Shown here: piece by piece, positions 31,706 through 38,935 of the stretch
How positions within the stretch are numbered: position 1 is the first letter of the stretch
Layout of the letters: every line of letters begins with the position of its first letter
DNA from: Anaerolineae bacterium
GTDB taxonomy: Bacteria > Chloroflexota > Anaerolineae > Caldilineales > Caldilineaceae
Reading direction: 5' to 3'
DNA: 64,000 bases
Assembly (NCBI GenBank): GCA_030432295.1
Contig: JAUIHI010000016.1
Coordinates: 62,001 to 126,000, forward strand
Program-made: the position numbers and the translations under genes
Notes under the pieces: generated by a model
What the model was told of the DNA's origin: nothing
The model's input: the letters and a program-made list of their open reading frames with translations, nothing else
Database searches by the model: none

Positions 31706-34225
31706 CTACCTGTTCACGGCGGGTAGGTAGAGGTTGTTGCTGCCACCGACCCGGAAGTTGAAGCTGGTGTTGTTGCCATCGTTGGTTGGCTGTGTTTCGG
31801 AGTAGCTCCAGTCGTAGGGCACACCCTCGGCGTCGATTGTGAAATCCGAAGCATCTTTGCCGGATAGACCAATCTCGAAGACTGCGGTGAAGGATTCGTT
31901 CATCTCCAACAGACCGTCTTCGCCCAACTGTTCGGGCAGCACAGAGACCGTCGCGCCCAGGCCTCCAGCGCCGCCGTCGGCATTCAGCACTTTGTTGCCG
32001 CCGGCCAGATTGTTCACAGTGAAGTTCAGGTCACTGAGGACAATCCGGGTCACATTGGCGAAGGTCGCTTCCAGCCGATAGACACCGGCCGGTGCATCGG
32101 TCTTGGGCGTCGGATCGTAGGTGGCTGTGGTGCCCAGCAGTTTGAGCCGGTGGTTGACCGACGGGTTTTGCAGCACATCATCGATGTAGAGGGCTGGGTC
32201 CAGCAGACCGTCCCAGGCCCCAAAGTCGATGAAGGCGGAGGTTGCGCCAGCCGGCACATCGACCCCCTGGGCGAACTCTTCCACATCCCCGTCCGGCCAG
32301 ATCAGCGTCATAAAGACGTCGAACGCCTGGCCCTGCGCGCCGGTGTCATCGAAATAGACCTGTTCCAGGTCCCGGTCCATATTCAAAAGGACCGACTCGC
32401 CTGCATCCAGAATCACATTGCTGACTTCGAAGATGACGCTGGGATCGTTTTCGTTGACCGGGTCGTAGGCCAGATAGATGGTCGGCGCTGTGATGGTCTC
32501 GGTAGCTTTGAAGTCGATGTAATTGCCGTTGGGGCTGACCGCAATCTCCAGAAATTCGTCGGGGTCGAGCTGAATGTCGTCCAGCCCCATCGCGTAGCCA
32601 TCGCCGGTCATCGTCAACCCCCCATCGGCTATGGCATCAATCGTCTTGCCGCTGATATATACCCAGTAGATGGCGTCCGGCGCGGCCAGGAAGGGCACTT
32701 CGATGATCGGCGGCACATCTTTGTTCAGCCCGCCTTTGAAGTAATTCACCGTAGCATTGGGGATTTCGTTGATGAAAGTCTCGGTGTCAAAGGCGAAACC
32801 CGTGGACTGCTCCGCCTCATTGGCGACCAGAAAGGCCCCTTCGCCCGCATATTCAAAGCGAATCGTACCGCTGATCTGGCCCGTAGCCGTCATGACCTGA
32901 CCTGTTCCCGCAGTTTCATCGGGGCAAAAGGGGCAGGTAAAATATTGGCCCGCGGGCAGGTCCCGGGCGTTCAGCTTGACCAACTCCAGATTCCCCGTCG
33001 TCGCCGTACCTTCGTAGACCGTTGCTGTTTCGCCGGGGGTGGAGGCTGTTACATAGCGCCAGGTGTTGGCCGCCATATTGACAGTGATGTATTGGCGCTG
33101 TTTGGGGAAGTTGTTGTCATAGACCAGAATGCGCGACTCGTTGGCGTTGACGGTCTCCACCCCATAGGCTGTGATGGCATGGCCGTCTTTGAATTCGTTG
33201 TTCGGCCCTTCCAGACGATAAATGCCGAGTGTATAGGCGATGGGGGTGGCCTGGTTGAAGTCTGCGGTCAACTGTTGGACCGCAGCCACGGGAGCCATCC
33301 GCTTGGTTTCGTTCCAAACTTCGTCCAGCCCCTGGCGGATAAAGTAGGAGGCAATGTAGTTCTCAATCGACTGTTGAGGGAAGTTCAGGTCAATTGTGGT
33401 TGAGGCCCCAGATTGAAAATCAGCCGGAGAACCCATGCCCTTGAATTCGTCCCAATTGAAAAGGCGCAGACTGGTGACAGCCATTCCCTCGCAGTGTCCA
33501 CCGTTCATACCCGCGATCTGGCCTTCCATCCACTTGCGGGCCGGACCGCTCAGCACACAGGTGGCCGCGGTCGTGCCCGACTTACAGGCGGACTTGCCAA
33601 ACAGGGCAAACATATCGGCTGTGCCCAGATCGTCGCTGGAGACCCGGGGGGCTTCGTTGGTGAAATTTTCAAACTGGAATCCATCAACTGTGACATCAAA
33701 AGGAGTGCCATTGACATCTTTGTAGACGGCTACCAGCGTACCAGCTGCCTCCACTGTCGTTCCCACCGCTGTCTCTGCCGATCGGCCATACGACTCGGTA
33801 CCGATCGTAAAATTCTCAATTTCAATGTTCTTGCTTTCAATCACCGTGCCAATGGCGACGCCACTATCCACTTTGACAACCAGTGTGAACTTATGGGTGG
33901 CATTGCCCGCCAGAGAGGCCAGATTGAAGGCGACCCCATTTTCACCTGCGAAGAGTGTACCCCCGCTCACATAAGTCGTGTGGATCGGGAGCGGATTCCA
34001 GACTGTAATCGCTGTGATGGGCTGACTGGTGAAATTCTTCAATGTCAGTTCATAGGTGATGTTGCCCCCAGCCAGGACGTAGCTCGGTCCACTGGGTGTC
34101 AAAGTGATGGTTTCCCCTTCGGCAAAGGCAGTCGGGGCAGACGTAGGCCACAGAAAACCGCTGAACAGCAGGGCCACGAGTGCGAGCACACGGCTGTACT
34201 GCACAACGCTGGAACGATAAGACAT
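31706..34225 (-). CDS. Large secreted protein with DUF11-like domain, possible papain-like site and YLPAV C-terminus
   Basis: The 839-residue protein starts MSYRSSVVQYSRVLALVALL after a strong GGAGG and has a Sec signal peptide likely cut after TAFA (35). Residues about 37-135 are an Ig-like DUF11-type domain (GGNITYELTLKNFTSQPITA). The next 260 residues contain GGHCEGMAV (Cys245), KDGHAITAYGV (His349) and LVYDNNFP (Asp370/Asn371). The order Cys, His, Asn/Asp and spacing are those of papain-like or C39-like cysteine peptidases, but I recognise no named family. The rest is beta-rich, with a CARDB-like stretch (about 490-830). The chain ends NNLYLPAVNR, resembling a C-terminal tail common in secreted Chloroflexota proteins. 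Function is unknown. Confidence 0.7.
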   Translation of the reverse strand: MSYRSSVVQYSRVLALVALLFSGFLWPTSAPTAFAEGETITLTPSGPSYVLAGGNITYELTLKNFTSQPITAITVWNPLPIHTTYVSGGTLFAGENGVAFNLASLAGNATHKFTLVVKVDSGVAIGTVIESKNIEIENFTIGTESYGRSAETAVGTTVEAAGTLVAVYKDVNGTPFDVTVDGFQFENFTNEAPRVSSDDLGTADMFALFGKSACKSGTTAATCVLSGPARKWMEGQIAGMNGGHCEGMAVTSLRLFNWDEFKGMGSPADFQSGASTTIDLNFPQQSIENYIASYFIRQGLDEVWNETKRMAPVAAVQQLTADFNQATPIAYTLGIYRLEGPNNEFKDGHAITAYGVETVNANESRILVYDNNFPKQRQYITVNMAANTWRYVTASTPGETATVYEGTATTGNLELVKLNARDLPAGQYFTCPFCPDETAGTGQVMTATGQISGTIRFEYAGEGAFLVANEAEQSTGFAFDTETFINEIPNATVNYFKGGLNKDVPPIIEVPFLAAPDAIYWVYISGKTIDAIADGGLTMTGDGYAMGLDDIQLDPDEFLEIAVSPNGNYIDFKATETITAPTIYLAYDPVNENDPSVIFEVSNVILDAGESVLLNMDRDLEQVYFDDTGAQGQAFDVFMTLIWPDGDVEEFAQGVDVPAGATSAFIDFGAWDGLLDPALYIDDVLQNPSVNHRLKLLGTTATYDPTPKTDAPAGVYRLEATFANVTRIVLSDLNFTVNNLAGGNKVLNADGGAGGLGATVSVLPEQLGEDGLLEMNESFTAVFEIGLSGKDASDFTIDAEGVPYDWSYSETQPTNDGNNTSFNFRVGGSNNLYLPAVNR

Positions 34226-34319: not shown

Positions 34320-34544
34320 CTAAATTTCCTCCTTTACCCCATCTGACGGTATCATCTGGTGCTGTGCTTCGAGTAAATCCGCGCGCAATGCAGCCAGCAG
34401 TTCGTCCACATCGGTGAATCCACGCCGTTGACCCGTAGCTGGTATTTCCAGAATGCAGCGTACAACCACTGCCTGGGCAAGGGTGCTATACTCAGCTTGT
34501 GTGCGGACAATCAGCGTGCAATACGCCACCGGGTTGGATTCCAT
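34320..34544 (-). CDS. Small hypothetical protein
   Basis: From ATG 34544 the product is 74 residues (MESNPVAYCTLIVRTQAEYS...). A longer form from 34583 would run into the direct repeats before the divergent regulator gene. The pattern of a short beta strand (CTLIVRT), a middle strand (VVVRCILEIPATGQRRGF) and a final helix (TDVDELLAALRADLLEAQ) resembles small stand-alone proteins common near SARP/LuxR-type regulators in this phylum, but I cannot name the family. It is divergently transcribed from the SARP-WD40 gene and may be controlled by the same intergenic repeats. Confidence 0.5.
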   Translation of the reverse strand: MESNPVAYCTLIVRTQAEYSTLAQAVVVRCILEIPATGQRRGFTDVDELLAALRADLLEAQHQMIPSDGVKEEI

Positions 34545-34565
34545 GCCCCGTAGCATAGCTGTCGA

Positions 34566-34598
34566 ACGCCAATCAAACGCCAATCAGACGCCAAAGGT
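34566..34598. promoter_or_regulatory. Three 11-bp direct repeats, candidate SARP binding site
   Basis: ACGCCAATCAA (34566-34576), ACGCCAATCAG (34577-34587) and ACGCCAAAGGT (34588-34598) lie in tandem with an exact 11-bp period between two divergent genes, ending eight bases before the SARP gene ATG. SARP-family regulators are known to bind direct repeats with 11-bp spacing. Autoregulation is inferred. Confidence 0.55.
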
Positions 34599-34606
34599 GA
34601 TCTGTA

Positions 34607-37600
34607 ATGACCAAAATTCTGCGCTTGACTCTGCTCGGTTCGCCCCAAGTGTTGTTGGGCGACCAGCCGGTTACGGCCTTTGCCACCTACAAAGCCCAGG
34701 CACTGCTCTTCTATCTGGCCGTCAGCGGTCAGCCCCACAGCCGGGATTCCCTGGCAACGCTGCTCTGGGAGGGGATGACCGACGCCCAGGCCAAAAAGAA
34801 CCTGCGCACCGTCCTGCCCGATCTGCGCACTCTGCTGGGCGATCACTTGCAGATCGACCGCCAGACGGTAGCGTTCCGGACCGCCAGCCCCTATTGGCTG
34901 GATGTGGAATCTCTGCGCGGCGCGCTGACACCCGGCCAGCCATCTGTGGACAGGGCAACCCGCCAGGCCGCGGTCGATCTCTACCGGGGGGACTTTCTGG
35001 CCGGGTTTCACATCCAAAACGCCCCCGCCTTTGACTCTTGGGTATTGGAACAGCGGGAGCAGTTGCATCTGCTGGTGGTGACAGCCCTCGGTCGGCTGGT
35101 CACCGACTATAGCCAGGCCGACGAATATTCGGCATCCCTGGCCGCCAACCGCCGCTTGCTGGCAATGGAGCCGTGGTCCGAGCCGGTCCACCGCCAGCAG
35201 ATGTCTCTGCTGGCCCAGACCGGCGAGAGGGCCGCGGCTCTGGCCCAATATGAAAGTTGCCGACGCATTCTCCAGGCCGAGTTTGGGGTGGAACCCCTGG
35301 CCGAAACGACTACACTCTACGAGCAGATTCGGGCCGGGGAGATCGGTCGTCAGTCGTCTCCCAGCCACGAACCGCCAACGGCTGTAATCGGCCAGCGCCA
35401 ACCGGTCCGTGCCACACTCGAACATAACCTTCCCCAGCCAACCAGACTGCACGGACGCCAGGACGAATTGGCCCGTCTGCAGCAGTGGATTGTGGCAGAT
35501 GGCTGCCGTCTGGTGGGTATCTTTGGCATAGGCGGTCAGGGCAAAAGCGCGCTGGCTGCCACCTTTGTGCGCACATTGGCCGAAAGTCTGCCCAAGCGAT
35601 GCGGTGGCATTGAGCAGATCATCTGGACCTCTCTGCTCAACGCACCGCCCCTGGCCGAGGTCTTGCAGGAATGGCTCTACCAGCTTTCAGACCAGCAGGT
35701 GATCGGACAGCCAGCCAGTCTGGATCAGCAGTTGACTCAACTGCTCGACTTTTTGCGCGCCCGGCGTACATTGCTGGTGCTGGACAATCTGGAAAGTATC
35801 CTCCACGGCGACGAACGCAGCGGCTATTACCGCCCCGGCTACGAAGTCTACGGCCAGCTTCTGCGCCGTCTGGCCGAGAGTCAGCACGCCAGTTGCCTGC
35901 TCATCACCAGCCGGGAATGGCCCCGAGAGATGCTTCGCCTGGAGGAGGAGAGACCCAGCGTGCGCTCGCTTGCCCTGGCCGGTCTCTGCGCAGATGCGGG
36001 GCAGCGGATGATGACCCATCGGGGCGTGATCGGTGACGCCGCCAGTCTCGCCGCATTTGTCCAGCACTATTCGGGCAACCCCCTGGCCCTCAACCTGGCC
36101 GCGGAGACTGTGCGGGACTTTTTTGACGGCAACATCTCGGCCTTTTTGCAGGCCGACACGCTAATTTTCGATGACATCCGGGATGTGCTGGACCAGCAAT
36201 TCATCCGTCTGACGCCTTTGGAGCGGGAGATATTGGGCTGGTTGGCGGTCGTGCGCGAACCCATCCCCTATGCGTCTCTCTCCGGTCTGCTGGCCCAGCC
36301 GCCAGCCCCCCGCGCGGTGATGGAAGCCATGCGCTCTCTGCAACGCCGCTCACTGCTGGAAAAATTTGACGACGCCTTTGGGCTGCAAAATGTGGTGTTG
36401 GAATATACCACCGCCTGGCTGGCCGATGGCATCCTCCGGGAATTGCTGGGCGACACACCAGTCCCCTTTGGATTCCTGAACCGCTACGCGCTGATTTTGG
36501 CCCAGAGCAAAGAGTATGTGCGGGCCAGCCAGCGCCGCCTGCTCTTGCAGCCTGTGGCCGAGGGGCTGATTGCTCAACGGGGCAGGCAGGCCGCGGTGGT
36601 TCTGTTGCGAGCATTTCTGAACCGTCTGCGCGACTGCTCTCCCCTGCCCGGCTATGCCGGAGCCAATCTGCTCCACCTGCTCCTGGCCCTGGAGATAGAC
36701 CTGTCTGGCTACGACTTTTCCCATCTCTTTCTGCGCCAACTCTATCTGCGCGGGGTCAGCCTGCCCGGCACCAATTTCGCCCACGCCGAAATCATCGACA
36801 GCGCCTTCACCGAACCGTTTGGCCTGGTCTACAGCGTTGTCTTTAGCCTGGACGGGCGCTATCTGGCCGCGGGCACTGGGGAGGGGGCGGTCTACATTTG
36901 GCGCACCGCCGATCAGCAGTTGGTGCAGGTGATCCAGGCCCACAGCCAGAGCATCAGCGAAGTGGCTTTTGGCGAACGGGTCACGGCCACCGGCGAGCGC
37001 CAATCTGTGCTGGTCAGCGTTGGCGAAGATAAGGACATCGGTCTTTCTCTGTTGACTCCCGACGGCGTATTGGAGCGCTTTACCTGTCTGCACCACGACG
37101 AGCAGCCCAGTATGCTGGCGGTGGGCATCAGCCCGAACGGTTGTCAGGCGACCGGCGTGGGCGAAGATGGCCAGATTTTCGTCTGGGAGATGGCCGCCGT
37201 TCAGGCGCCCCGTCTCCTCCACCGGGTGGTGACCCATCCCACCCGTCTGCGTCTGGTGGCTTTTGACGCCGATGGCAAAACTGTCGCGGTGGGCAATCGG
37301 GATGGGCGGGTGGCACTCTGCCAATTGGCAACCGGGGAAACCAGCCTTGCCCTGACTGTGCCGACAGATTCGCTTGTGGCGTTGGCGCTGGATGGGGAAG
37401 GGCAGCGGTTGGCGACAGGTGAAAATGGGGGGAAGATATCTCTGTGGAGCCTGCCCGCGGGAGAATTGCTGGGGATGACAGAGGCAGAGCCGGGCGTTGT
37501 CGATGCGTTAGCCTTCAGCCCTGATGGGCGCTTCCTGACCAGCAGCCACGGGGATCGGGCTGTGCGGGTCTGGGCGGTTGAGGACAACCGGGTGGTTGAA

Positions 37601-38935
37601 GACAACCGAGCCGTTCCAGAACAGTCTGGCCCGCGACTGCTCCATACCCTTCTGGGACACAGCCACGTAGTCTGGTCGGTGGTCTTTGCGCCCCAGAGCG
37701 CTGGCAACCGGGAGCGTCTGCTCGTTGCCAGCAGCAGCAGTGACCAGACTGTGCGGGTCTGGGATGCAGAGACCGGCCATTCGCTCTATACTTTGCGCGG
37801 CCAGCCCCGTGCCTTGGGTTCTCTGGCGATTGCCCCCCTGCCCAATGACTCGCAGGAATCAGCCATCGCGCAGAGACTCTCTGCTCGATGGCTCCTAGCC
37901 GCGGTCGGCTACGATCAATTGGTGCATCTGTGGCAGGGCGAGGGTCGGGAGGCGGAGGCGACGCGCCGGACCCTGCGCGGGCAGAGCTGCCCCCTTTACA
38001 CCGTTGCCATCAGCCCGGACAGCCGCGCCCTGGCCTCTGCTGGTCGCGATCGGTCGATTGATCTCTGGGATGTTGCCAGCGGAGAGTTGCGGCAAAGCTT
38101 GCAAGGCCACACCAATAGCATCACCTGTCTCGCCTTTCATCCGGCGGGGGAACTGATGGCCAGCGGCAGCACAGATGGAACAGTGCGCCTGTGGGCGATG
38201 CACCCAACCGAGCGCAGCCACGCTGAGAGAAAAGACGCAGCTTTGGCAAGCCAACCGGTGGCCGTATTGGAAGCCAATTCTCGCTATGTCTACGACATCG
38301 CCTTTCATCCAGAGGGGCACACCCTGGCGGCTGTGGGTGCAGACCCGCAGCTGCGCCTGTGGGATATGACCCAATCCCCGCCTGTGGAAAGGGCGGAAGC
38401 GCTCAAAAGTGTGAGCGAGGCAGGCGAGCAGGACATCTTCTGTGTGGCCTTTAGCCCGGATGGGAGCAAACTGGCCTGTGGCGGAAACGCGCTGATCCAT
38501 CTCTGGCAGGGAGATGCCCCTCCGCTCGTTCTGCGCCAGCATACGGCCTGGATATTCTCCCTGGCCTTTTCGCCCGACGGCACACTGCTTGCCAGCAGCG
38601 GCGCGGACGCGACGGTCTGCCTGTGGGATGCAGAGAGTGGCCGCCTCCGCTCTGTGCTGCGCGGCCACAAGGAGACGATCTACAAAGCGGGCTTTACACC
38701 TGATGGGCAGTTTGTCGTGAGTTGTAGCTTCGACGGCACAGTCAAATTCTGGGATGTGGCGACGGAGGATTGTGTCAACAGCCTGGCTGTGGAAGGGCCT
38801 TATGCGGGGATGCGGATCGATGGGACAAGCGGGATTACCCAGGCCCAGCGGCGGGCGCTGAGGGCATTGGGCGCGGTAGAGGAGGGGGAGCCGGATTACT
38901 CAAATGGGTACGATTCCCCTTTGGATTCTGGGTAG
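34607..38935 (+). CDS. SARP/BTAD-NTPase-WD40 regulator
   Basis: The 1442-residue protein starts MTKILRLTLLGSPQVLLGDQ. Residues 1-95 are an OmpR-like winged helix in SARP style, and 96-245 are a bacterial transcriptional activator domain (BTAD, helical repeats). An NB-ARC/NACHT-type NTPase follows with Walker A GIGGQGKS (about 306-313), LLVLDNLES (Walker B, about 390) and a GNPLALNLAAETV plant-R-like block (about 490). About 13 WD40 repeats fill residues 740-1420, recognisable by endings such as VRVWDAETG, IDLWDVASG, VCLWDAESG and VKFWDVATE, enough for two propellers. The likely role is a STAND transcriptional activator that opens after ligand binding on the propellers. Target genes are unknown. 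A short EDNR(V/A)V duplication occurs near residue 990. Confidence 0.9.
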   Translation: MTKILRLTLLGSPQVLLGDQPVTAFATYKAQALLFYLAVSGQPHSRDSLATLLWEGMTDAQAKKNLRTVLPDLRTLLGDHLQIDRQTVAFRTASPYWLDVESLRGALTPGQPSVDRATRQAAVDLYRGDFLAGFHIQNAPAFDSWVLEQREQLHLLVVTALGRLVTDYSQADEYSASLAANRRLLAMEPWSEPVHRQQMSLLAQTGERAAALAQYESCRRILQAEFGVEPLAETTTLYEQIRAGEIGRQSSPSHEPPTAVIGQRQPVRATLEHNLPQPTRLHGRQDELARLQQWIVADGCRLVGIFGIGGQGKSALAATFVRTLAESLPKRCGGIEQIIWTSLLNAPPLAEVLQEWLYQLSDQQVIGQPASLDQQLTQLLDFLRARRTLLVLDNLESILHGDERSGYYRPGYEVYGQLLRRLAESQHASCLLITSREWPREMLRLEEERPSVRSLALAGLCADAGQRMMTHRGVIGDAASLAAFVQHYSGNPLALNLAAETVRDFFDGNISAFLQADTLIFDDIRDVLDQQFIRLTPLEREILGWLAVVREPIPYASLSGLLAQPPAPRAVMEAMRSLQRRSLLEKFDDAFGLQNVVLEYTTAWLADGILRELLGDTPVPFGFLNRYALILAQSKEYVRASQRRLLLQPVAEGLIAQRGRQAAVVLLRAFLNRLRDCSPLPGYAGANLLHLLLALEIDLSGYDFSHLFLRQLYLRGVSLPGTNFAHAEIIDSAFTEPFGLVYSVVFSLDGRYLAAGTGEGAVYIWRTADQQLVQVIQAHSQSISEVAFGERVTATGERQSVLVSVGEDKDIGLSLLTPDGVLERFTCLHHDEQPSMLAVGISPNGCQATGVGEDGQIFVWEMAAVQAPRLLHRVVTHPTRLRLVAFDADGKTVAVGNRDGRVALCQLATGETSLALTVPTDSLVALALDGEGQRLATGENGGKISLWSLPAGELLGMTEAEPGVVDALAFSPDGRFLTSSHGDRAVRVWAVEDNRVVEDNRAVPEQSGPRLLHTLLGHSHVVWSVVFAPQSAGNRERLLVASSSSDQTVRVWDAETGHSLYTLRGQPRALGSLAIAPLPNDSQESAIAQRLSARWLLAAVGYDQLVHLWQGEGREAEATRRTLRGQSCPLYTVAISPDSRALASAGRDRSIDLWDVASGELRQSLQGHTNSITCLAFHPAGELMASGSTDGTVRLWAMHPTERSHAERKDAALASQPVAVLEANSRYVYDIAFHPEGHTLAAVGADPQLRLWDMTQSPPVERAEALKSVSEAGEQDIFCVAFSPDGSKLACGGNALIHLWQGDAPPLVLRQHTAWIFSLAFSPDGTLLASSGADATVCLWDAESGRLRSVLRGHKETIYKAGFTPDGQFVVSCSFDGTVKFWDVATEDCVNSLAVEGPYAGMRIDGTSGITQAQRRALRALGAVEEGEPDYSNGYDSPLDSG

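Follow-up and report, generated by a model that had tools for sequence, protein, structure and literature searches.

The afsS gene of Streptomyces coelicolor encodes a small protein. It is separate from the gene of its regulator AfsR, a large SARP with an NTPase part (structures 8hvr and 8k60), and its promoter is the target; in the afs box, two direct repeats of 11 bp immediately precede the −10 (PMC10936776). The rule given in the same source is that SARPs use direct repeats 11 or 22 bp apart, with 8 bp between the 3′ one and the −10. In a second described system, the operator of pimM in Streptomyces natalensis, the SARP-LAL protein PimR has three heptameric direct repeats with 4-bp spacers at its target promoter; the consensus is CGGCAAG and the target is a PAS-LuxR regulator gene within an antibiotic cluster (PMC5930380). 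Among the literature matches listed, which covered few subscription papers and no bioRxiv preprints, we found no report of SARP boxes in Chloroflexota, or of the small protein described below.

The window analysed here, a 64-kb stretch of DNA from a member of the Chloroflexota, contains three exact copies of ACGCCAA (34566-34572, 34577-34583 and 34588-34594) with a period of exactly 11 bp. From 34562 to 34594 the plus strand reads TCGAACGCCAA / TCAAACGCCAA / TCAGACGCCAA, and the stretch common to all three copies is the 7 bases ACGCCAA and nothing longer. The repeats lie between the ATG of a SARP gene (34607, plus strand) and the likely ATG of a divergent small gene (34544, minus strand), as the original prediction had it; the start that it gave, 34566, is correct, but the site ends at 34594, 4 bp short of the predicted 34598. 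The exact ACGCCAA pair is unique to this site in the window, where it is seen as two overlapping matches, and pairs with up to 2 mismatches occur four times against a mean of 0.72, a number reached by none of 100 shuffles. The genome-wide search proposed with the prediction gave a single occurrence of the triple with up to 3 mismatches in the 6.7-Mb genome (none for the reversed control pattern) and the exact pair at this site only. Heptamer pairs with up to 2 mismatches numbered 63 in the genome, compared to 43 for the reversed control; among these, 18 further loci were inspected and a NANNNT at the 8-bp place was found in one. We do not claim a second genomic target for this SARP.

It is on the minus strand that the repeats take on the layout of a SARP-type activator site. 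Here they read as three exact TTGGCGT heptamers (34594-34588, 34583-34577 and 34572-34566; the box as a whole 34566-34594) with the 4-bp spacers CTGA and TTGA, followed by the 8 bp TCGACAGC (34558-34565), the hexamer TATGCT (34552-34557), ACGGGGC (34545-34551) and the ATG. Both parts of the SARP rule are thus found: the site has three direct repeats, where two would suffice, at 11 bp, one of the two distances allowed, and exactly 8 bp separate the last heptamer from TATGCT, a putative −10 recognized as a sequence match rather than as a mapped promoter. The same spacing and a TANNNT hexamer recur in the homologs. The window has one instance of exact heptamers followed by 8 bp and TANNNT, compared to an average of 0.02 for 100 first-order Markov shuffles. 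This orientation means that the site most likely serves the promoter of the divergent small gene: the box faces the small gene and not the SARP gene, the ATG of which begins 12 bp beyond its other end. With only 7 nt between the −10 and the ATG (6 or 7 nt in the orthologs), the mRNA of the small gene should be leaderless. The heptamer itself differs from the AfsR repeat, CGTT(T/C)ATCGNN (PMC10972967). The PimR operator resembles the box in its three heptamers but is described in PMC5930380 as not overlapping the −35 box, unlike the place that we propose for the present site.

The regulator (34607-38935, plus strand) is a protein of 1442 amino acids with an AfsR-like DNA-binding domain, a BTAD, an NB-ARC and WD40 repeats. 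The BTAD characteristic of the SARP family is recognized by PF03704 (E 7e-23, residues 104-242) and the central NTPase found in large SARPs by PF00931 (NB-ARC, 30.5 bits with a cut-off of 23.5, residues 285-394). The C-terminal half, where large SARPs of the AfsR kind have a TPR domain, contains WD40 repeats instead (PF00400, E 2.4e-86, among the best 25 of 51 families), and the NCBIfam AfsR equivalog reaches only 37.6 of 1430 bits. Residues 1-106 match no Pfam domain. The AlphaFold model of residues 1-260 (pLDDT 91.6) nevertheless aligns nearly end to end with AfsR (8k60, 8hvr) and EmbR (2ff4, 2fez); six chains were its only PDB matches at E <= 0.001, all of them AfsR or EmbR, with the AfsR chains on top. 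The model thus predicts the OmpR-type N-terminal DNA-binding domain expected of a SARP. In a sequence profile search (alignment A4) the best match was an engineered TPR protein, reached through many weak repeats, and AfsR came next over positions 4-244. According to PMC10936776, AfsR contacts the DNA backbone through W74, R87 and R94 and the bases through T88 and R92. In a HMMER alignment, a mapping of our own, the three backbone contacts stand opposite W54, R67 and R74 of the regulator. All ten sequences of A4 have these three residues; in a second set, 2 of 34 sequences have N or Q in place of the last. The base contacts fall on variable positions. The neighbouring protein with a predicted SARP fold, together with the 11-bp period and the 8 bp to the −10, agrees with the original view of a SARP-type site. 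A reading of the regulator as part of a defence system was dropped, since PADLOC returned nothing beyond HEAT-ARM_XIII over residues 853-1119, which belong to the WD40 part. A term search for BTAD, SARP and AfsR in the main text of PMC7159879 gave no mention.

The small divergent gene (34320-34544, minus strand) encodes 74 amino acids. Its open reading frame as called mechanically begins at a TTG at 34583, within the repeats, and the ATG at 34544 was taken as the likely start. The protein has no family match in Pfam or NCBIfam. Its AlphaFold model has a beta-beta-beta-alpha fold (pLDDT 81) with no Foldseek match at E <= 0.001; VIA-align gave no Z >= 5 either, an absence without weight because this list re-examines Foldseek matches only. 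By analogy with AfsR/AfsS the protein could be a downstream effector, and it could also be a feedback partner of its SARP. After a gap of 94 bp follows, on the same strand, a gene for a protein of 839 residues (31706-34225), which begins with a signal-like sequence and matches DUF11. Compared with the AfsR system, then, the target in the window is divergent, is of another family and is followed by a secreted-protein gene, and its relatives are found in Chloroflexota.

The small protein has relatives with 73 to 46% identity at six loci in five other genomes (G001, G005, G010, G017 and two loci in G016), and three weaker matches beyond these. Upstream of the six orthologs the layout is kept while the letters change: heptamers such as TTGGCGT, TTTGCGT or CTAGCGT and similar are followed by 8 bp and a TANNNT. 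The distance from the −10 to the ATG is 6 nt, except in the window and the relative nearest to it, where it is 7 nt. By eye, the next gene on the same strand also starts with a signal-like sequence at all six loci, and in three (L088, L090 and L093) it resembles the 839-residue protein. A search for related loci returned 11, among them Thermoflexales, Anaerolineae and Chloroflexi records; one with 58 bp upstream (L097) was set aside, and six of the ten testable loci are those of the close orthologs. The strict box, defined with an [A/G]CG core, was detected automatically in 8 of the ten, and by eye with lower heptamer identity in the other two (L089 and L092). A BTAD gene is divergent in 9; in the remaining locus (L096) it was looked for and none was found. 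Among the weaker matches, L099 and L091 both have a box, L038 shows by eye three TTCACG copies, 8 bp and TAAGCT, and L035 has no box by eye.

These orthologs bear on whether the repeats might simply be coding sequence, or a chance repetition. The frame of the small gene is indeed open through the repeats (the ORF from the TTG at 34583), and in orthologs such as L088 and L090 it is open into or through the box. Yet the box does not stand in one and the same frame to the ATG across orthologs, while the heptamer period and the 8-bp spacing are kept. Since a distance of 6 instead of 7 nt to the ATG shifts the frame and leaves the spacing to the −10 untouched, the constraint on the box is one acting on DNA, as judged from these alignments, and coding of the site in orthologs, which had been named as the observation that would overturn the prediction, does not hold. 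The shuffle means (0.02 in the window; 0.39 and 0.08 for the two locus sets below) likewise speak against chance, and we consider either explanation highly improbable.

A wider view was obtained from BTAD genes, of which there are 27 matches in the own genome and 3, 6 and 6 in three other genomes. A scan of the 700 bp upstream of the 27 for a period of 11 and a gap of 8, with the core left free, gave 7 hits, where 200 shuffled sets averaged 0.39 and other periods from 8 to 15 gave 0 to 3. Six of the 7 (at 5 loci) face away from the regulator gene and one, at L012, faces toward it. The strict box faces away from the regulator at 7 of the 27 loci, or 10 with a looser −10, a count that is partly circular because the [A/G]CG core was first read from these same loci. 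The related-loci, class-set and box-density counts are less circular, with at least two loci shared between the related-loci and class sets. The GCG core of the window is the rarer form. The 15 BTAD loci of the three other genomes contributed one box, facing away, at a locus shared with the class set.

Other arrangements were noticed in the own genome. At L063 (C18) there are two boxes facing the same way, +219 and +488 from the SARP start of L025 and thus 269 bp apart; both have the heptamers TTCACGA/TTCACGC 8 bp before a TANNNT, and only the second precedes a small gene, with 6 nt to the ATG. At seven loci the regulator is, by eye, divergent from a secreted-looking protein with no small gene between; L014 and L021 have the strict box, L008, L018 and L026 the looser one, and L022 and L028 none.

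The prediction had held that the site controls both genes. The geometry bears this out for the divergent small gene. For the regulator one may suppose that the box is mainly autoregulatory, with the SARP, bound 12 bp ahead of its start codon, either activating its own gene or repressing it as a road-block. A possible promoter of the SARP gene, GGTGCTATACT, is located on the far side of the box from the SARP ATG, which would place bound SARP within the leader of its own mRNA, and the hit at L012 does face the regulator gene. Against this, the strict geometry is never directed toward the regulator gene, at any of the 27 own-genome loci or in the 83 upstream regions of the class set, one own-genome box (L025) is 488 bp from the regulator start, and just 2 of six orthologs retain the upstream promoter candidate as a −10. 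A mainly autoregulatory role is therefore unlikely in our view, and some autocontrol of the SARP through the box is possible. The candidate promoter, a weak extended −10 (34482-34492, plus strand), lies inside the coding sequence of the small gene, where it overlaps the codons Glu-Tyr-Ser. It resembles, by eye, motifs upstream of several BTAD paralogs; three of the six orthologs have TGTACT as the hexamer, and a fourth has CGTATT. In view of the codon overlap and its poor conservation as a −10, we do not claim it as the SARP promoter.

Of 150 genomes of the class, 83 have a match to a profile of the small protein. With this profile a class set of 85 loci was chosen from a larger number of existing matches: 28 of the 30 loci returned (the own genome and G017 were omitted as already used) and 57 of the listed matches, taken in order of rank. 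The set retains five matches with in-frame stops, and 83 of its loci have at least 60 bp upstream. The strict box occurs on the strand of the small gene in 32 of these 83 upstream regions and on the other strand in none, with a shuffle mean of 0.08; with the gap kept at 8, periods of 9, 10, 12 and 13 gave no forward hit and one reverse hit (period 9). At period 11, gaps of 9, 10 and 11 gave 8, 3 and 1 loci. With the core left free, period 11 and gap 8 were found at 39 loci forward and 3 reverse (shuffle mean 0.35), but gaps of 8, 9 and 10 then behave alike (39, 40 and 35 loci). The 8-bp preference in the class set thus needs anchoring by the [A/G]CG core, since the heptamer frame is free without it; for the window, the 7 bases common to the three copies define the frame. 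The box is by no means universal: the strict form is absent within 350 bp at 51 of the 83 small genes, and a relaxed form requiring CG only at 45. This CG-only scan gave hits at 38 loci, compared to 4 on the other strand and a shuffle mean of 3.4. In all 38 the CG of the downstream heptamer is preceded by A, and in 36 the −10 starts with T; positions six and seven of the gap are T in 24 and G in 23, respectively. Strict boxes are about 108 times denser upstream of the small genes (1 per 944 strand-bases) than elsewhere in the loci (1 per 101,908), where all 7 are on the small-gene strand.

The gene order also recurs in the class set. At 62 of the 85 loci a BTAD gene lies within 2.5 kb in divergent orientation, and at one it is co-directional; at the other 22 it was not found in these positions, eight of them having less than 700 bp upstream. 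Downstream, 77 loci have enough sequence and 63 of these have a next gene on the same strand, which appears signal-peptide- or membrane-like in 44 of the 63, compared to 13 of 39 window ORFs, by a crude hydrophobicity rule. L145 and L158 each have a second box with matching heptamers downstream of the small gene, at +367 and +204, respectively, counted from the start of the small-gene match; it lies near or ahead of the next gene, as though the secreted-protein gene had a SARP promoter of its own.

The 5′ triplets of the heptamers vary between loci, and it might be expected that the regulators vary with them. Similarity of the recognition helices did not correlate significantly with that of the box triplets (Mantel r 0.08, p 0.12, with 26 of 34 pairs kept), and we do not claim such a co-variation; for the whole DNA-binding domain the values were r 0.11 and p 0.048. 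Since helix similarity does not track the triplets, each regulator is paired with its own box on the ground that the two are neighbours. This leaves some room for another OmpR-family protein as the one that binds the repeats in place of the adjacent SARP, for example a PhoP-type response regulator using 11-bp direct repeats. Indeed, PhoP also recognizes the AfsR repeats of the afsS promoter (PMC10972967), and the lack of a clearly detected co-variation would be compatible with a binder of this kind. It would not account for the divergent BTAD gene at 62 loci, however, and a single global factor would hardly be expected to use heptamers with triplets that change from locus to locus. The 8-bp spacing is moreover that stated for SARPs. 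Overall we find binding by such a factor quite improbable, even more so than a mainly autoregulatory box.

We therefore favour, with a probability of roughly 85%, a model in which the box is a SARP-type activator site through which the adjacent SARP activates the leaderless small gene and probably also the secreted-protein gene behind it. What the model builds on comes from the analysis itself: the geometry and orientation of the box, their conservation, the predicted SARP fold and the order of regulator, small gene and next gene in relatives. Binding and activation themselves, the transcription start, read-through into the secreted-protein gene and the nature of a signal are what we infer from it. 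In this model, the adjacent gene would supply two or three SARP monomers that bind side by side on the minus-strand TTGGCGT heptamers, where they would occupy the place of the −35 element and bring RNA polymerase to the −10 TATGCT. Transcription of the 74-residue gene would begin at its ATG or immediately beside it, giving a leaderless mRNA, and would probably continue into the gene for the 839-residue secreted protein. The timing of regulator binding is presumably set by the NB-ARC and WD40 parts.

The lasting finding, as we see it, is the recurring module of SARP, box, small protein and secreted protein, that is, a Chloroflexota SARP module with predicted private operators and an undescribed small family. 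More tentatively, and at somewhat less than even odds, this may be a class-wide Chloroflexota module in which paralogous SARP/NTPase sensors each have a private operator, of rigid geometry with the [A/G]CG core and a varied 5′ triplet, and control divergent operons of a small protein and a secreted surface protein, the small protein being a feedback partner of the SARP or a helper of the secreted protein. If true, nature would here have provided a series of activator-operator pairs that work in parallel and are insulated from one another. Boxes that combine one core with varied triplets would be well suited to the study of SARP site choice, and a small family that is without a Pfam or NCBIfam model, yet present in more than half of the class genomes, travels with SARPs. 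The promoter rule from Streptomyces, 11-bp repeats and 8 bp to the −10, appears valid in another phylum, and it gives a direct route to assigning targets to the BTAD genes of Chloroflexota, several to many per genome, for which we found no target report.
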